Positions 28,496 through 36,582 of a stretch of DNA of 64,000 bases are shown piece after piece. The stretch spans positions 184,326 through 248,325 of the forward strand of contig NZ_JAUNXR010000003.1 of NCBI RefSeq assembly GCF_030539665.1. Direction: 5' to 3'. The position numbers and the translations under genes are program-made. Every line of letters starts with the position of its first letter. Positions within the stretch are counted from its first letter, which is position 1. Source of the DNA: Methanobrevibacter sp. (lineage in GTDB: Archaea; Methanobacteriota; Methanobacteria; Methanobacteriales; Methanobacteriaceae). The notes below the pieces were generated by a model, which worked only from the letters and a program-made list of their open reading frames with translations, was not told the origin of the DNA and searched no databases.

Positions 28496-28831
28496 ATGAT
28501 AAGAGCCGTATGGACAATACATAATGAAAATTTTGAAATAATAATTGACGGTGAAATAAAAGATGAGAAGGTATCTGATAAAAAATACAGCGTCGGTTCC
28601 GACATTTGGACAGTAGCAATCCCCGAACTTAAATTCAATGATGAGACTGCGCAAAATGAGTACGACCAATTCGTAAAAGATTTGATAATCCTATTTAGTG
28701 AACCTACCATAAATCAAATATTGATTGATGCCAAAATTGGAGAGGAATCCGAATATGACACAAAAACAATTTCAAAACCGCTGATAATAAGAAAAATAGA
28801 AGAATATGAAGTTGAAGAGATTATAGAATAG
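28496..28831 (+). CDS. hypothetical protein, 111 residues
   Basis: A soluble acidic protein without recognised domain or membrane segment; it has alternating strand-like stretches and a glutamate-rich end (KIEEYEVEEIIE). GGTGAT lies four bases before the ATG at 28496; the GTG at 28487 is part of that ribosome site. The end overlaps the convergent small membrane protein gene by 11 bases. Strong start signal and length support a real gene. Confidence 0.6.
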   Translation: MIRAVWTIHNENFEIIIDGEIKDEKVSDKKYSVGSDIWTVAIPELKFNDETAQNEYDQFVKDLIILFSEPTINQILIDAKIGEESEYDTKTISKPLIIRKIEEYEVEEIIE

Positions 28832-29174
28832 AATTTCCCTCTTCTAAAACTTCATCAATTGTGTTAAATTCCAGCGGATTACCTTCCTTGTCCTTGGAAT
28901 CTGTTGTAACAAGAACATTCGGCGATTTTACCAAAAAGCTATATGAAAAATATGCTACAACAATCATGACAAGAATGTATGCATAAGGGACTGGAACAAT
29001 AAATAAAGCAAGCGCCAATAATCCTAATTGAATGATTGGATTCCCATATCTCTTTTTCTTCATTAGAACATAATGGCTTTCTCTGGCACGGACTTTAAAC
29101 TTGTTTGAAGATAATTCTTTTTCTATATCCTCCATATCCTGCTTGTTTTTTGCATGAATTATCCTAAGAGCCAT
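28821..29174 (-). CDS. small membrane protein
   Basis: A 117-residue protein with a charged N-terminal part (residues 1-45, including KQDMEDIEKELSSNKFKVRA), two close hydrophobic helices (GLLALALFIVPVPYAYILVM, then a further helix) and an acidic C-terminal tail. No known family. It starts six bases after the nitroreductase and is the last gene in the run of genes that begins near 36517. Function unknown; it may simply ride along with the operon. Confidence 0.65.
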   Translation of the reverse strand: MALRIIHAKNKQDMEDIEKELSSNKFKVRARESHYVLMKKKRYGNPIIQLGLLALALFIVPVPYAYILVMIVVAYFSYSFLVKSPNVLVTTDSKDKEGNPLEFNTIDEVLEEGNSIL

Positions 29175-29180
29175 TGGAAT

Positions 29181-29687
29181 CTAGATATATACAGTAAACT
29201 CATCAATGGATTTTCTTGGAGTGTCTCTTGGTTCTGCATCAGGATATCCTAATGGAGTGAATAAAACAGGAACTTCATTATCATCCAAATCTAAAAATTC
29301 TCTTGCTTTTTCTGGCTTGAATGCACCAATATAACAAGTTCCAAGACCTCTGTTAGTAGCTGCAAGAATCATATGATCCATAACAATAGTTGCATCGATG
29401 TCAACTATATTGTAATCATCATACTTACGTGTCCAAGCCTTATCCTTAAGTCCTACAACCGCCAAAACAATAGGAGCCTGTGTAAACCAGTCAGGAGAAT
29501 AGATTTCATTAAGAACATCCTTATTCTTTTTAGCATCAATCACATAAACTTTAAAAGGCTGGTTGTTAACGCCAGTTGGAGCTATTGTAGCCGCTTCCAA
29601 AACATAATTTAAATCCTCTTCACTTACTTCCTTATCCAAATAACCTCTTACACTATACCTTTCATTAATAACTTTATCAAAATCCAT
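29181..29687 (-). CDS. nitroreductase family flavoprotein
   Basis: A 168-residue FMN-dependent oxidoreductase of the nitroreductase family. It opens with the typical RYSVRGYLDKEVSEEDL and has IAPTGVNNQPFKVYVID and the YIGAFKPEKAREFL and PLGYPDAEPRDTPRK motifs. Such enzymes reduce nitro groups, quinones or enoates with NAD(P)H. The stop of the citrate synthase-like gene is two bases away, so the two are co-expressed. The natural substrate is unknown; an enoate reductase role would fit a dicarboxylate pathway but is only inference. Confidence 0.88.
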   Translation of the reverse strand: MDFDKVINERYSVRGYLDKEVSEEDLNYVLEAATIAPTGVNNQPFKVYVIDAKKNKDVLNEIYSPDWFTQAPIVLAVVGLKDKAWTRKYDDYNIVDIDATIVMDHMILAATNRGLGTCYIGAFKPEKAREFLDLDDNEVPVLFTPLGYPDAEPRDTPRKSIDEFTVYI

Positions 29688-29688
29688 A

Positions 29689-30495
29689 TTATTCCCTCCT
29701 TATATCAGTATAAACAATATCATCAATGTCACAGAATTTTCTAAATTCATCCTGAGTCATGTTTTCTTCATGAATATGGGCAATTATTCCAGGAATCCTT
29801 CCAATGATAAAAACACCCAATCCCAAATCGCTGGTAAATCCCAAATCAGACAGCAAAGCTGCATTTGCACCATCAACATTCAAGCTTATATCTTTATTTG
29901 ATTTTAACAAATCCTGGAGAGATAATGCCAATTTTGTATGATTACCAACCATTCCTTCCTTAATAGCCAAATCCATAAGCTTACGAGCTCTTGGATCAGT
30001 ATCATGATATCGGTGGCCAAAACCAGGTATTTTCTTTTTATTGCTTGAATATCTATTATAAATATCAATAGCTAAACTAACAATCTGCTTATTGTCTATG
30101 TCAGAATCCCCAATCAACTGAATTGAATTTATAGCTGATTGATATAAATCCATTGTTTTTTGAATAGCTCCTGCGTGCTTGTGTCCAAAGGACAATAATG
30201 CTCCAGCTACTGCAGAATTCATCGGAGAACCTGAAGAAGTAATCAGACGAGCTGTTTGAGTGCTTGGAGGTGTTGCACCATGATCGCAGAAAGAAACCAA
30301 AATATGATTAAACAGTTTTCCTTCTCTAAGTGTTGGCAATCTTCCTCTCAAAAGCAAAAATACCATATCTGAGTATCTGATCTTTTCAATTAGATCCTCT
30401 TGATTATATCCTCTTGTAACGATTTTATTAGGCTCTACTTTTGAAATAGCCGTTTTTAATGAATGTTCATTTACCTTAAAATTATTTTCATTCAT
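29689..30495 (-). CDS. short citrate synthase / citryl-CoA lyase-like protein
   Basis: A 268-residue protein of the citrate synthase fold. The catalytic triad is intact: H107 in GHKHAGA, H161 in GFGHRYHDTDPRA and D208 in NVDGANAAL. At 268 residues it is much shorter than true citrate synthase (about 370-430) and matches the small citryl-CoA lyase-like group, which cleaves citryl-CoA to acetyl-CoA and oxaloacetate. It lies between a CDF-type protein and a nitroreductase in an operon with PrpD and fumarase-like genes, so it may act on a related tricarboxylate CoA ester. Confidence 0.82.
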   Translation of the reverse strand: MNENNFKVNEHSLKTAISKVEPNKIVTRGYNQEDLIEKIRYSDMVFLLLRGRLPTLREGKLFNHILVSFCDHGATPPSTQTARLITSSGSPMNSAVAGALLSFGHKHAGAIQKTMDLYQSAINSIQLIGDSDIDNKQIVSLAIDIYNRYSSNKKKIPGFGHRYHDTDPRARKLMDLAIKEGMVGNHTKLALSLQDLLKSNKDISLNVDGANAALLSDLGFTSDLGLGVFIIGRIPGIIAHIHEENMTQDEFRKFCDIDDIVYTDIRRE

Positions 30496-30534
30496 AATAT
30501 TAATTATATTATTTAATAAAACATTTAAACATTA

Positions 30535-31893
30535 TTACTCATCAGATAGTTTTAAAATAAAAAAATCCAAAATGTTTGCATCATAATTAGAAAATGATGA
30601 CAAAATTTTATCCAAGTAATTAACCCCTTTTTTAGATGTTTTAAAAGAATTGTCTTTCACAATTATTGCTTCCGCATCAATTAAATGATTGAAAACATAA
30701 TCATAATCCACATCATGCTTAATGGAAATGCCCAATTCAGAAATTAAAGGACAATAGTTGTTATCTATTAAATCATGATAAGAATCCACCAATTCCTCCT
30801 TTTCAACATAATCGTGCATGGCCCTATATAAAATCCATGTGACGAGATTTTCATTATGATTCAAATTCATGTAGTTTCCAAAAAGTGTTTTATATCTGCT
30901 ATAGTCAACATTTCCGTCTTGAACTTCATGTTTAAACTCTTTTAATAAATCAATTGAATCCCTTATAATTTGAATACCAATGTAAAGACCTATTATTGCA
31001 TCAATCCAATGGATTCCAACTAATGAGAATAATGCTCCTATAATAACAACAGAACCTATCAAAATATGATTTTTAGCATCGACTGACTGAGAAATCAATG
31101 TTAAATTATTCTGAAAACGACCTATGTGCCTTTCATAAGTAAATAGGAATAGAGCTACCATAATAGCAATGAATTCGATTACAACAACCAAACCGATATG
31201 TGTTGCAGGAGTGGCTGTTGCGAATATAATCCTATATAATTTACCTCCAGATTCATATAATGCGCTGAATCCTGCTACAAAAAGCATCACTATAACCAAA
31301 AGGTTGGTTAACTTCTGATAGTCATATTTAAGACCAACCCAAACAAAAAAAGCGGAAATGGTATCTGAAATTGCATCATAACCATCTGATATTAGAGAAA
31401 CACAACCTGAAAAATATCCTCCACCCAATTTTAGAACAGCCAGTAAAAAGTTGATTATTGTATTGTTACGTTCTGCTTGAGTAATTTCAAAAAATTGATT
31501 GTTAATTAATTTTGCCTTGTGAACAAGAGAATTTTTGATGTTGCTTGCTTCCACAATCCCATTTTCAGTCAAATAATATTTTCCGTTTTTAAAGTCTACA
31601 AGACCATCATCAATTAACAAATCACATTCTTTTTTTGTATCGATAAAGCCATCTTTAAACACGGCTGATTTTTTGGAATGTCTTTTAAAGAGATTTTTTA
31701 TATGATACCTTATTCTGGAGATATTATCAAAAATTGTGTTTAATAAAGATTTATTTTTGCTATCCCATTGTTGATACCAAATTGATGATATGAAAAGTAC
31801 CAACTTACTATCAATATCATCTAAGGATGAAGGTTCTTCGTTTAAAACTAACAATATGAATTTATCTAATGAAATTAAAGTTTTGGATTCCAT
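30535..31893 (-). CDS. CDF-type transporter with flanking winged-helix-like domains
   Basis: A 452-residue protein. Residues 140-320 hold six hydrophobic helices of the cation diffusion facilitator fold. The TM2 site is DAISD (D173, D177) but the TM5 site reads DAKNHILIG, with isoleucine at 279 where aspartate is expected. Residues 1-130 contain a winged-helix-like stretch (LLIDDGLVDFKNGKYYLTENG), and the C-terminal 120 residues contain another (IDAEAIIVKDNSFKTSKKG). ATG 31893 is preferred because GTG 31902 is part of the ribosome site. It overlaps no gene but starts seven bases after the fumarase stop. Confidence 0.7.
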   Translation of the reverse strand: MESKTLISLDKFILLVLNEEPSSLDDIDSKLVLFISSIWYQQWDSKNKSLLNTIFDNISRIRYHIKNLFKRHSKKSAVFKDGFIDTKKECDLLIDDGLVDFKNGKYYLTENGIVEASNIKNSLVHKAKLINNQFFEITQAERNNTIINFLLAVLKLGGGYFSGCVSLISDGYDAISDTISAFFVWVGLKYDYQKLTNLLVIVMLFVAGFSALYESGGKLYRIIFATATPATHIGLVVVIEFIAIMVALFLFTYERHIGRFQNNLTLISQSVDAKNHILIGSVVIIGALFSLVGIHWIDAIIGLYIGIQIIRDSIDLLKEFKHEVQDGNVDYSRYKTLFGNYMNLNHNENLVTWILYRAMHDYVEKEELVDSYHDLIDNNYCPLISELGISIKHDVDYDYVFNHLIDAEAIIVKDNSFKTSKKGVNYLDKILSSFSNYDANILDFFILKLSDE

Positions 31894-31898
31894 AAAAA

Positions 31899-32774
31899 TC
31901 ACTTTAAAGCTAATTTAGCAACTCTTGGTTCAACACAACAAGAAGGCCTTATTGACACGATTCTTACGCCGCTGGCCCTTTGATTTCCCACATTTACAAA
32001 AGATCCCAAAACAGTAGTTTTTCCACCAAGACCCATGGGACCAATATCTAATTGATTTAGTTTGTTAGATACGAATTCTTCAAATTCTGATTGATTATCC
32101 AAATTACCATAAGCAATTGACTTTAAAAGCAAAGTGGAAGCTTCAAAATGAGTTCGTCCTATTCCAATAGCTGGAATTGAAGGCGTGCATCCCAATTTTT
32201 CAAGAGAGTCCCCTAACCAATCAATGGCTGTTTCAAGGACATTCAAATAAGACCTTTTATGAAATACCCTATATGTTTTTCCACGAATTTCAGGGCCCCC
32301 TCCTTCCAATATAAAATGAATGTTTAATGTATCCGAATCTATTTCATGACCATAACTTGAAAAATCGTTTTCAGTATCTATGATGAATGGAGCAGGTTTC
32401 ATTTTTCCAGGTCTTTCAAATAAACCCTTACTTTGAGATAACCTTTCCTTATCATTTCCCTTAACAGCCATTGGCCTTGCAGGAAGATTGTTTAAACCCA
32501 ATTCAATGCCCCCATATATATTATTCAATAATTCTCCAGTAATTTCCCTTTCACTGCCCACTTCCAAGATAACATGAGGAATTCCAGTATCATCACAGAG
32601 AGGAAGCTTTTGTTTATTTCCAACTTTATAGTTTTCTAAAAGCTGATTTAAAACCCAAATTGCGTTTTCATTATCTTCATTTTTAATGGCATTATTTAAT
32701 GCCCTTTCACGGTCTTTAGGAAAATTGACGCTGGCTTCAATAATTGCATTTGATATTTCATTTACAATATCCAT
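31899..32774 (-). CDS. fumarate hydratase / tartrate dehydratase alpha subunit, class I
   Basis: A 291-residue alpha-type subunit of the Fe-S dependent class I hydro-lyases (fumarase, L-tartrate dehydratase). The cluster cysteines are visible: C60 in CDDTG, C196 in GCTPSIPAIGIG and C279/C280 in RPSCCVEPR; GPMGLGG is also present. These enzymes need a beta subunit, but no beta gene occurs in the window, so it may act with a distant partner or alone on a special substrate. It lies in a tight operon between the U32-like and CDF genes. Confidence 0.88.
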   Translation of the reverse strand: MDIVNEISNAIIEASVNFPKDRERALNNAIKNEDNENAIWVLNQLLENYKVGNKQKLPLCDDTGIPHVILEVGSEREITGELLNNIYGGIELGLNNLPARPMAVKGNDKERLSQSKGLFERPGKMKPAPFIIDTENDFSSYGHEIDSDTLNIHFILEGGGPEIRGKTYRVFHKRSYLNVLETAIDWLGDSLEKLGCTPSIPAIGIGRTHFEASTLLLKSIAYGNLDNQSEFEEFVSNKLNQLDIGPMGLGGKTTVLGSFVNVGNQRASGVRIVSIRPSCCVEPRVAKLALK

Positions 32775-32779
32775 TTAAA

Positions 32780-33682
32780 TCATTCCGGAATAGCCAAATC
32801 TTTAGATGACTTTGGAGACATTGCTGCTTCAGGACAATACTGTTCAATTACCCGATTTACCAATTCCACTTGTTTCAATCTTAAAATAGCATCGTTTTCT
32901 GTAGTATCCCAATTATGATTTTTGGCCACAGATCCTCCGGTCTTGAGATAAACTGGACTTGCCACCCTTATGATATCTGGAATTTCATAATGCCTTATAA
33001 ATCCTCCACTGGATTTTGGATTTTCAGTATGCAAATCCAAAGGAATATCACATGCACTCCTGATAGCTGCAATCATTGGAATCTGCAAATCACGAACAGG
33101 ATTAAGAGAATCGAGACCTAACTGTTCAAATAATTTTCCATCGGCAGGATTTCCATGGCCAGCATGGGCTGAAAGTTTGAAATGAGTATTTTTAGGGATA
33201 ATTCCATCATTTCTCATATTATTTAAGACCCATAAAAGGCCTTCATCATAAAGTAAAATTCCCCTGACACCCAAATCAATAGCCCTTTTCGCATCTTCAA
33301 TAGCATATACTAAATTGTCATAGCCCCTAAGCCTATAACCCATCCTACTTCCTTCTTTAGTGTTTACACTAGCGCTTGTGTCATAAGTGGCTCTTGGGCC
33401 GATTGATAAAAATAATTCCACTTTATATTGTTTTGCAAGGTTGACCATTTCTTTTATTTCAGAATCTGTCAATAGCATGATTCCCTTGGTTTGAGTAATT
33501 CTGTGTAATACAATGCCCCTATTTGCAGCTTCCCTAAGTAGAACCTCCATGGTTTTTGGAGATTGAATTCCTGGAACCTCCAAACGATACTGCCCACCAT
33601 CAGCAAATCTTTTTGAGGATTTAAAGGAAGAATCCTGTTTTTCGATACCTAATTTTTTCAAATATTCCATTGTATTGTTCAT
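32780..33682 (-). CDS. U32-peptidase-like TIM-barrel protein
   Basis: A 300-residue protein whose pattern of alternating strands and helices (EVPGIQSPKTMEVLLREA, VELFLSIGPRATYD, GVRGILLYDEGLLWVL, KLSAHAGHGNPADG) suggests a TIM barrel related to the U32 peptidase-like group; it is not a proven peptidase. I do not know its substrate. Conserved-looking histidines, SIGPRA and the NPADGKLF segment may form an active site. Its stop is adjacent to the fumarase start and it begins directly at the end of PrpD, so it almost certainly works in the same pathway. Confidence 0.65.
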   Translation of the reverse strand: MNNTMEYLKKLGIEKQDSSFKSSKRFADGGQYRLEVPGIQSPKTMEVLLREAANRGIVLHRITQTKGIMLLTDSEIKEMVNLAKQYKVELFLSIGPRATYDTSASVNTKEGSRMGYRLRGYDNLVYAIEDAKRAIDLGVRGILLYDEGLLWVLNNMRNDGIIPKNTHFKLSAHAGHGNPADGKLFEQLGLDSLNPVRDLQIPMIAAIRSACDIPLDLHTENPKSSGGFIRHYEIPDIIRVASPVYLKTGGSVAKNHNWDTTENDAILRLKQVELVNRVIEQYCPEAAMSPKSSKDLAIPE

Positions 33683-35092
33683 TTAATCATTTCCATTTAA
33701 TATTTCCATAAATTCTGTCATTTGATAATTTTCAATGTCGTCAATAATAGAAAGTTTATTGATGTTGTATTTAGGATTCAATTCTTTAAATTTAGTAATC
33801 AAATCATTCAACTCATAAGGATTCTCCAAATCGCCTTTAGGAATTATAACCAAGTTTTGGAAAACTCCATTTCTAAAGTTTTCATCCAATCTTATCACAA
33901 CATTGGATGGGCGTTTGGATGGATATAGCTGATTTAATTTTGGATCTACAGAAATAACAACCTTATTTGCCAAATTTCTAATTGTCTTAACAATATCCAC
34001 ATTACTGTTTTCATCAAACAAACCATATCTGATTAATAATTTAATATTATCAATACTCAAATTACCGCAAGCAAGTGCAATGGCTACTGCATAAGGCAGA
34101 CTCTGTTTTAATTCTTCTAATGATTTTGGATTGTAATTATCATGAGATGCTGCTATATCATATGTTTTTACCAAAATGCTGTCTATATGGCCATATTCCT
34201 TGTCTATAATAGGCCTTAATTTTAAAATAGCTTCTATTGAAGAATGCAAATGTCTACAAAATGGATATTTCTTAAAATAGATATCTCTAAAATCAACATC
34301 CCCCACATTCATTAATAAATCTTCCAAACTATATTCATCTAGAGAATCATTGAAAACCATTGTTTTTAAAAATCCTTCTTCACCATCAAAAATACTACTG
34401 CTGCCAGTAAATCCGTTTTTGGCTAAAAATGCTGACAACATACCATTGAAAGCTGCTTTTCCAACATGCAATGACTTGCCCATACTTCCGGAATGGTCAG
34501 ATTCCAATAACCCTGCAGCCTGAGTTCCGCTTAAGCCTAAAGCAGATGTGATTCTTTCTTCATCCAATTTCAGAAGTTTGGCTGCAACTGCCCCAGCTGC
34601 AAAAGTTCCAATAGTCCCTGTTGAATGAAATCCGTTGTTCCTATGTTTAGGATTTACCAATTTTCCTAAAAGTATTCCAATTTCATATCCCAAGATAACG
34701 GCTTCTAAAAATTCCTTTCCAGACAAGTTATAAGCTTCGCTAATGGACAATGCAGTGGAAAAAACAACGGCACCCAAATGTAAATGTGCTCCCCTATGAC
34801 CATCATCCAAATCAAGAGAATGGGCTGAAATACCATTAATAAAAGCTGCGCTCAACATGTTTTGCTTTATTTTATCCTCACCAATGATGGATGATGTTAA
34901 ATCATTGTAAGTTGCTTCACCATATATTTCATTTATTGTTAAAAAAGCAAAATAAGAAGGATTTTCCTTAAATCCCCTATAAGCCACTCCAAAATAATCT
35001 ATAAACGCTGCTTTGGCCACATTTATGGTTTCGGGACTGGCCTGATTATAATCAAAATTTGAAATGAAATTAGCGATATTTTTAAAAAACAT
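33683..35092 (-). CDS. MmgE/PrpD family protein
   Basis: A 469-residue protein of the MmgE/PrpD family, which includes 2-methylcitrate dehydratase and cis-aconitate decarboxylase. Conserved segments include SLDLDDGHRGAHLHLGAVV, ILGYEIGILLGKLVNPKHR, GFHSTGTIGTFAAGAVAAK and LLESDHSGSMGKSLHVGKA, spaced as in the family. The length is usual. The gene follows the DUF3100-like pair by about 45 bases and is next to the U32-like gene. It is the clearest enzyme in the operon and suggests handling of a hydroxy-tricarboxylate or related diacid. Confidence 0.88.
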   Translation of the reverse strand: MFFKNIANFISNFDYNQASPETINVAKAAFIDYFGVAYRGFKENPSYFAFLTINEIYGEATYNDLTSSIIGEDKIKQNMLSAAFINGISAHSLDLDDGHRGAHLHLGAVVFSTALSISEAYNLSGKEFLEAVILGYEIGILLGKLVNPKHRNNGFHSTGTIGTFAAGAVAAKLLKLDEERITSALGLSGTQAAGLLESDHSGSMGKSLHVGKAAFNGMLSAFLAKNGFTGSSSIFDGEEGFLKTMVFNDSLDEYSLEDLLMNVGDVDFRDIYFKKYPFCRHLHSSIEAILKLRPIIDKEYGHIDSILVKTYDIAASHDNYNPKSLEELKQSLPYAVAIALACGNLSIDNIKLLIRYGLFDENSNVDIVKTIRNLANKVVISVDPKLNQLYPSKRPSNVVIRLDENFRNGVFQNLVIIPKGDLENPYELNDLITKFKELNPKYNINKLSIIDDIENYQMTEFMEILNGND

Positions 35093-35137
35093 TTAAATCT
35101 TTAAATATATTTGTAAAAAATACTATTAAAGATTTAC

Positions 35138-35623
35138 TTAAATTGAAACTCCAGTAAGTGTCAAAACAATATGGGCAATAATAACTGATCCAAGATAGGT
35201 TCCTGTGATAACCGCTACTGTAACAATAGCTCCTCTCCAACCAATCTTTTTGAATTGATCCCAATTTTTACCCATTCCAATACCAACATATGCTAAAAAT
35301 ACGGTTACAATAGCCAATAACTCTATTTTTGAAACATAGTAGACTATGAAACCTGAAGTTGGCATCATAGGCAATGATAAAATCAAACCCAATAAAGAAA
35401 CATAAACAATAGAGGATATGTTTAAAGGCACGTATCTTTCAAGCAACATTGCAATCAATGTCAATCCAGATAAAATCAGCATACCTACCAATGATTCGCC
35501 CATCGGATGATGATAACCTACATAATTCCCAATTACTGTTATTACTGAAAATATCAACAATAAAAGAATCCAATTTCTAATTCCTGTAATTGAAACTGAT
35601 TCTGAACCATCAATAATATCCAT
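35138..35623 (-). CDS. membrane protein, second part of DUF3100-like pair
   Basis: A 161-residue protein with four or five hydrophobic helices; it starts MDIIDGSESVSITGIRNW and then runs through LLLLIFSVITVIGNYVGYHH. Its ATG follows the stop of the upstream membrane gene directly, with GGAGGGTGA eight bases before it, so it is a separate protein and not a frameshift relic. It most likely forms one transporter with the upstream DUF3100-like protein. Confidence 0.75.
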   Translation of the reverse strand: MDIIDGSESVSITGIRNWILLLLIFSVITVIGNYVGYHHPMGESLVGMLILSGLTLIAMLLERYVPLNISSIVYVSLLGLILSLPMMPTSGFIVYYVSKIELLAIVTVFLAYVGIGMGKNWDQFKKIGWRGAIVTVAVITGTYLGSVIIAHIVLTLTGVSI

Positions 35624-36514
35624 TTATTCACCCTCCTTTTGAGAATCTTTGGGATTTCTTCCTATTTTTGGTTCTAAAATTTCATATAATTTTTGTGTAA
35701 GTGGAATGGCAATGAAAATACATACATAAATTCCGATACAGAAAGATATGAGATTACTGAAACCTGAGAATGCTTCAATATTTGTAGATATGTCAGGAAA
35801 CATTGCAAGCAACGGAGCTAAAGCCGCTGCATTCATACTAGCACTACCTACTCCACTACCCATTGCAAATGCATATGGATGGAACGGCAATACTGATACG
35901 CAGAAGCTTGATAAGAAGCTGATATATAAAGTTCCTATAACGGTACCTATAAGGAATACTGTTAAAACTCCACGAGTTTCAGGAGAATCAAAACCGAATT
36001 TATCTATAACAACCGCAACGTTTGGTTCCCTACCGATAGAATTTGTCATACCAATTGCCTCTCTTTTAAATCCCAATACAAGTGCAATTGGCAATGCTAA
36101 AAATATAGTTCCTAAATTACCTGCTTCTTGAAGAATCAAAGCAGGACCTACTTTAAATAAAACATCAATAGATTGGCCACTAGAAATAGCTAACTTACAA
36201 AGCAATGGCCCTATGAATAATAGCATTGCGCCTTCTGCAATTCTTGCTTGCTTTCTTGTAATAAATTTGGCAGGCTTGAATAAGTATAAAAAAAGACCAC
36301 CCAACATTGCCCAAAGCAAAGGCATTGCGGACAATTCTATATTGCTAGTAATCGGTACTTTGATTGGACCTATTAATTCAGCAATAATGACTAAAGCTAA
36401 AACCGTAAGATGTAATTTATAGGATTTCCAAGGTTTCTTTTTTAGAATTGTTTTATCAGTTTTGTGTCTGAACCTATTGGTTTCTTCAACACTATCGGAA
36501 TTATTCTCACTAAT
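35624..36514 (-). CDS. DUF3100-like membrane protein, probable transporter
   Basis: A roughly 296-residue protein with about seven hydrophobic helices, most like DUF3100 proteins by my recall; these are presumed transporters. The first canonical start is TTG at 36334, but it has no ribosome site, and the open frame extends 60 codons upstream to ATT at 36514 and 36517, seated six to nine bases after AGGAG. The added region contains a membrane helix (LHLTVLALVIIAELIG). A stop codon lies just before. It is the first gene of the operon and probably imports its substrate. Confidence 0.7.
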   Translation of the reverse strand: MSENNSDSVEETNRFRHKTDKTILKKKPWKSYKLHLTVLALVIIAELIGPIKVPITSNIELSAMPLLWAMLGGLFLYLFKPAKFITRKQARIAEGAMLLFIGPLLCKLAISSGQSIDVLFKVGPALILQEAGNLGTIFLALPIALVLGFKREAIGMTNSIGREPNVAVVIDKFGFDSPETRGVLTVFLIGTVIGTLYISFLSSFCVSVLPFHPYAFAMGSGVGSASMNAAALAPLLAMFPDISTNIEAFSGFSNLISFCIGIYVCIFIAIPLTQKLYEILEPKIGRNPKDSQKEGE

Positions 36515-36530
36515 AATGTTCCACTCCTAA

Positions 36531-36546
36531 TAAATATTAATATTTA
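36531..36546. promoter_or_regulatory. 16-base palindrome before the DUF3100 operon
   Basis: TAAATATTAATATTTA is a perfect palindrome placed between the likely TATA element (36575-36582) and the ribosome site of the first gene, where a bound regulator would block transcription. AT-rich palindromes can arise by chance here, so this is a moderate call. Confidence 0.4.
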
Positions 36547-36574
36547 ATATTAATAATTATTTTAAGTTATGTAG

Positions 36575-36582
36575 TATATAAA
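36575..36582 (-). promoter_or_regulatory. TATA element for the DUF3100-PrpD operon
   Basis: On the minus strand TTTATATA lies about 60 bases before the likely start codon; transcription would begin near 36553. Confidence 0.45.

Follow-up and report, generated by a model that had tools for sequence, protein, structure and literature searches.

A conserved four-enzyme core and an unlinked hydro-lyase subunit in methanogens of the Methanobacteriota: a candidate module for the tetracarboxylate tail of methanofuran

A 64,000-nucleotide stretch of a Methanobrevibacter sp. genome (contig NZ_JAUNXR010000003.1, positions 184,326 to 248,325; hereafter the window) carries nine open reading frames in close file, all on the minus strand (28821-36517), whose products include an MmgE/PrpD-family protein, a barrel protein, a fumarase-type alpha subunit and a short citrate synthase, and raises the question of whether such a set degrades a polycarboxylic acid or makes one. 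An initial annotation, made from the letters of the window, had proposed a nine-gene operon for the uptake and breakdown of a tricarboxylate or dicarboxylate. The operon-like packing was borne out, with intergenic gaps of 0, 45, 0, 5, 5, 39, 1 and 6 bases, and a citrate-type acid remains supported as the chemistry. For the direction of the pathway, we favour a different answer: four of these genes, with a second hydro-lyase subunit encoded elsewhere in the genome, would form an intracellular biosynthetic module for a polycarboxylic acid, most likely 1,3,4,6-hexanetetracarboxylic acid (HTCA), a tentative assignment that we place slightly below an even chance. Methanofuran, which carries HTCA in its side chain, is the first carbon carrier of methanogen CO2 reduction; known enzymes make its core, and the present analysis offers five concrete candidate genes for its tail. 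Nearly every genome of the phylum retains them, a single genus has lost them together, and one of them, a subunit gene, stands beside mfnA.

The unit that is conserved is smaller than the run. It consists of four enzymes in the order PrpD - U32L - FumA' - CCL, namely the MmgE/PrpD-family protein (PrpD, 33683-35092), a TIM-barrel protein (U32L, 32780-33682), a divergent Fe-S hydro-lyase alpha subunit (FumA', 31899-32774) and a citryl-CoA-lyase-like short citrate synthase (CCL, 29689-30495); the nine genes are not one ancient unit. We drew 97 archaeal loci with U32L from two overlapping genome collections, and the counts are accordingly not independent. Relative to U32L, PrpD lay upstream in 85 of 89 loci, and FumA' and CCL lay downstream in 91 of 97 and 86 of 91, respectively. 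The same order was present in same-genus relatives, which do not have the cation transporter that interrupts the run in the window, and recurred among other genera of the family as well as in three more families (f2, f3 and f4), four families in all; exceptions included Methanobrevibacter filiformis and Methanovirga, in which no neighbours were recovered for U32L. U32L was encoded in 129 of 152 genomes of the phylum and was absent from all 20 genomes of one genus (g12), which is probably Methanosphaera. Archaeal U32L sequences formed one clade (support 98/95), clostridial FumA' sequences were nested among archaeal ones with moderate support, and MmgE/PrpD was not reported in the control genomes of M. 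jannaschii and M. acetivorans. The gene-order search that had been suggested as a check thus recovered a core order conserved across archaea, along with relatives of the set in Firmicutes. Near the intact U32L gene of one relative (L037:5440-5891, genome G010) lies a partial second copy, broken by internal stops.

Family searches against Pfam and NCBIfam agreed with the enzyme classes named initially (DUF3100, MmgE/PrpD, Fumerase alpha, citryl-CoA lyase and nitroreductase). CCL, which has a citrate synthase C-terminal domain, scored 406.8 bits against NF004866 (cut-off 245), and its best solved relative was PDB 6hxp (5.6e-50), which we take to be the Hydrogenobacter citryl-CoA lyase. The full catalytic triad attributed to it earlier is indeed there: H107, H161 and D208 were kept in 24 aligned archaeal homologues, with the catalytic aspartate in a conserved NVD/NID motif. 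A doubt about this aspartate, raised by a GFT/GFD column, was dropped, the residue sitting in the NVD/NID motif. CCL is thus citryl-CoA-lyase-like by score and residues, with citryl-CoA cleavage itself a prediction; it shares its length class and catalytic motifs with 6hxp but differs in its neighbours, which are PrpD, U32L and FumA', and no gene for citryl-CoA synthetase was noted in its vicinity. PrpD has the N and C domains of its family (PF03972 and PF19305) but belongs to the MmgE/PrpD superfamily only, scoring 31-40 bits against 2-methylcitrate dehydratase equivalogs with cut-offs of 458-950; its nearest solved structures were IDS epimerase and B. subtilis IRG1. The pairing of a citrate-synthase-family condensing enzyme with a nearby PrpD-family protein recalls the methylcitrate route, and the chemistry proposed here is of the same type (condensation, then dehydration); unlike that route, however, this locus encodes the short CCL in place of a full-length methylcitrate synthase, has a PrpD far below the 2-methylcitrate dehydratase cut-offs and adds U32L and FumA' with its partner.

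U32L had been described as a U32-like barrel. Its AlphaFold2 (AF2) model is a TIM barrel (pLDDT 87), but U32L matched no family in Pfam or NCBIfam, U32 models included. In a Foldseek search with the model, class II aldolases came closest, all with template-modelling (TM) scores of about 0.5, and the solved U32 peptidase Mk0906 (5d88) ranked seventh with a modest TM of 0.43-0.51. Comparison of a U32L profile with PDB sequences gave a single, meaningless match (E 0.22), and no relatives were found in viral and phage collections. Distant relatives of U32L (32-41% identity) do occur on bacterial plasmid records, where they are recorded as 'U32 family peptidase'; a role in polycarboxylic acid metabolism may extend to proteins that now carry no more than this label. 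One of them, on an Enterobacter chuandaensis plasmid (L221:11914-23072, 32% identity), stands amid genes for an aminotransferase, an iron-containing redox enzyme, an M14 peptidase and a major facilitator superfamily transporter, in what looks like a small-molecule cluster.

FumA' (PF05681, 8.8e-49) shares with class I two-subunit Fe-S hydro-lyases such as fumarase, L-tartrate dehydratase and mesaconase an alpha/beta architecture and three conserved alpha-subunit cysteines, here the invariant cluster ligands C60, C196 and C279. It differs from them in a distinct signature (CDDTGIPH / LGCTP / EPR), and a canonical fumarase pair is present elsewhere in the genome. Against the fumarate hydratase equivalog NF004885, FumA' reached 108 bits (cut-off 276), passing only the broad TIGR00722. 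The fumarase alpha had been called lone, which is true of the operon but not of the genome: besides the canonical-type alpha (330 bits) and canonical-type beta (163 bits), we found a divergent beta subunit (FumB', 81 bits) on another contig (G000:C1:354697-355203). Nearly every genome of the phylum had FumB' at E <= 1e-46, whereas of the 20 genomes of genus g12, where U32L is absent, 19 had only a weak match of the canonical FumB kind and one had none. In Clostridia, FumB' adjoins FumA' inside clusters that encode U32L. Because FumB' co-occurs with the core, is absent together with it in g12 and adjoins FumA' in Clostridia, FumA' very probably pairs with FumB', as judged from genomic distribution.

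The position of fumB' suggests a link to methanofuran. In f2, f3 and f4, mfnA is immediately followed by a co-oriented fumB' (4 of 4 genomes, overlapping or 5 nt apart; 8 of 8, 33-122 nt; and 1 of 1, 8 nt, respectively), and the distance is also short in genera of the window's family such as g2, g4, g5 and g14-g17. In six genomes tested, the gene was confirmed as MfnA by its score against TIGR03812 (550-572 bits). In one g12 genome (G123), the order rpl10e-ppsA-mfnA is kept and fumB' is gone (rpl10e and ppsA were named by eye). In the window's own genome, the position of fumB' after mfnA is taken by a dihydroneopterin-aldolase-like gene on the opposite strand (L255:6336-6704, named by eye). 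Methanofurans have a common core, built by MfnA to MfnF, and five different side chains (PMC11365854); HTCA (1,3,4,6-tetracarboxyhexane) is both a methanofuran component and a major solute in Methanothermobacter (PMC1224877). Our literature search found no paper assigning genes to the tetracarboxylate tail of methanofuran. HTCA is not known from outside this lineage.

From these observations we infer substrates, a reaction order and a product. By analogy with the methylcitrate route, CCL would join an acyl-CoA to a 2-oxo acid by Claisen condensation, giving a citrate-like tertiary alcohol, which PrpD, the FumA'-FumB' Fe-S hydro-lyase or both would dehydrate or rehydrate; U32L would contribute an aldolase- or isomerase-type step, and the double bond would be saturated by a reductase, for which the nitroreductase next to the core is a possible candidate in this family. 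The end product would most likely be HTCA, which occurs in the methanofuran side chain and, in Methanothermobacter, also free as a major solute. Two routes to HTCA are compatible with the enzyme classes. CCL could join glutaryl-CoA to 2-oxoglutarate, followed by dehydration by PrpD and then reduction; alternatively, homoaconitate and pyruvate could be combined in an aldolase-type step on U32L, and we make no choice between these two routes. The fuller proposal, that PrpD - U32L - FumA'B' - CCL is the HTCA pathway of this methanogen class, with methylcitrate-like chemistry and with U32L as a new family of TIM-barrel enzymes that also serves clostridial clusters with different C-C lyases, is slightly more doubtful than the assignment of the end product. 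If the proposal is true, the methanofuran of g12 should be without HTCA.

Several observations weigh against this assignment. Genus g12 keeps MfnA, MfnB and the formylmethanofuran dehydrogenase FwdA without the core; therefore, methanofuran in itself does not require the module, and we rejected the idea that g12 lost the module through loss of methanofuran. In the eight genomes of the window's genus that were compared, 55-86 kb separate mfnA from fumB', and the pairing of mfnA with fumB', also beside ppsA, may reflect a single ancestral arrangement. Neither a thioesterase nor an HTCA ligase was identified. Clostridia, which are expected to be without methanofuran, carry the PrpD/U32L/FumA'B' core, and the archaeal search for the core covered genomes of this phylum.

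The clostridial relatives bear on the choice of product. Across the GTDB collection, 435 stretches encoded a relative, of which the best 80 were retained; one class-level sample of 391 genomes gave 15 with a match, several of these only weak. Clostridial clusters resemble the archaeal locus in bringing PrpD, U32L, FumB' and FumA' together, but their C-C lyase is of the PF15617, citrate-lyase-like or HMGL kind instead of CCL, and their context is one of polysaccharides or acid degradation. Type I clusters contain PF15617 or HMGL lyases with ATP-grasp, sugar transferase, DegT aminotransferase and polysaccharide genes, and type II sets lie beside citrate-lyase-like genes (names outside the reference set were given by eye). 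Type III sets, partly named by eye, lie beside malic-enzyme-like, Ldh2 and tricarboxylate-transporter-like genes and use another FumA, without the FumA' signature that is common to types I and II. In three clostridial loci (L227-L229), which are probably degradative, U32L and PrpD occur together with a canonical-type FumAB, a tricarboxylate-type transporter and a malic-enzyme-like gene. The comparison defines a four-protein core (PrpD, U32L, FumA' and FumB') to which archaea and Clostridia each add C-C lyases of their own; given the other lyases of the clostridial loci and their setting among polysaccharide or acid-degradation genes, the assignment of a product is tentative.

These loci lend some weight to an alternative in which the core makes a different polycarboxylic acid, for example for decoration of the cell surface, with no relation to methanofuran. 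The gene content of type I clusters points this way, and the identity of U32L between archaea and Clostridia (59-64%) is near that within archaea (61-75%). However, the archaeal loci examined showed no recognisable glycan genes around the core, and fumB' pairs with mfnA instead, so that we consider a surface acid rather unlikely. An acid could also be taken up, as the initial annotation had it, through the DUF3100/LysO pair and broken down to acetyl-CoA and a 2-oxo acid. Transporter genes adjoin the core in the window and in 48 of 75 archaeal loci, and, among the clostridial sets, type III has a malic-enzyme-like gene and a tricarboxylate-type transporter as neighbours, type II genes that resemble citrate lyase. 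Yet the pair is an optional transporter and not part of the core: it was absent from the f2-f4 loci sampled and from many loci of the window's family, all of which retained the core, and in Fusobacterium, Sulfitobacter and Haladaptatus DUF3100 and a following gene of 150-160 amino acids form a separate two-gene unit near amino-acid genes, away from this core. The type III FumA, moreover, lacks the FumA' signature. Methanothermobacter retains the core, and CO2 suffices as its only source of carbon for growth (PMC3087415). Retention of the core where the transporter is missing, in autotrophs as well, makes uptake and breakdown unlikely, markedly more so than a surface acid, and this part of the earlier interpretation was not supported.

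A branch of amino-acid metabolism, finally, would have CCL make citramalyl-CoA from pyruvate and acetyl-CoA, with FumA'B' acting as a mesaconase-like enzyme in an isoleucine-related route. FumA'B' does stand beside citrate/citramalate-lyase-type genes in some Clostridia, and M. stadtmanae, whose genus is probably the one without the core, is listed as needing leucine and isoleucine (PMC10658910). PrpD and U32L would nevertheless be left without a role in such a branch. Methanogens, moreover, make isoleucine by CimA and LeuBCD, which we count against this alternative and which leaves it the most improbable of those considered. Synthesis of a polycarboxylic acid remains the reading with the best support for the archaeal core, with HTCA as its most likely product.

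The five remaining genes of the run are of narrower distribution. The run opens with the DUF3100 membrane protein (35624-36517; PF11299, 1.2e-86, 290 bits against a cut-off of 27), whose structure model is poor (pLDDT 43.5), followed by its LysO-like small membrane partner (35138-35623), a call that sits exactly at the curated cut-off of PF03956 (3.5e-5). DUF3100 lies upstream of the core in the 48 of 75 loci given above, and in one relative the pair is present as three tandem copies upstream of PrpD (L042:2497-7126). Between FumA' and CCL, a cation diffusion facilitator (30535-31893; PF01545), missing from the features first listed for this region, carries an N-terminal extension with a weak winged-helix match; it is a local, non-core insertion that recurred in 1 of 87 other archaeal loci (L106). 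After CCL come a nitroreductase-family protein (29181-29687; PF00881) and a small membrane protein without Pfam or NCBIfam match (28821-29174), found in 52 of 71 and 44 of 71 archaeal loci, respectively. Both are family-level neighbours: the nitroreductase, which the initial annotation had counted in the set, is frequent within Methanobacteriaceae only, and none followed CCL in the f2, f3 and f4 loci sampled. The initial annotation was therefore right about a nine-gene run but not about a nine-gene unit, given the four-enzyme core, the local cation transporter and the optional DUF3100/LysO pair.

TiaS, recognised by family search, lies upstream of the run, and the downstream neighbour was read by eye as the I subunit of an A-type ATP synthase. 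An Rfam scan of the window gave tRNA as its sole match, and a promoter scan showed no excess over shuffles, a comparison that is not informative with a bacterial consensus in an archaeal host. The region as first delimited extended to a TATA-like stretch near 36582, and its coding part starts at about 36517. There, the aligned N-terminus of the DUF3100 gene offers no ATG, GTG or TTG; a Shine-Dalgarno-like sequence is instead followed by an in-frame ATT at 36517. The same combination of a Shine-Dalgarno-like GGAG/GGTG and an in-frame ATT, seen in the window at 36500-36540, recurs in the DUF3100 genes of four other loci (L040, L041, L049 and L050), which suggests a conserved ATT start codon for this gene.

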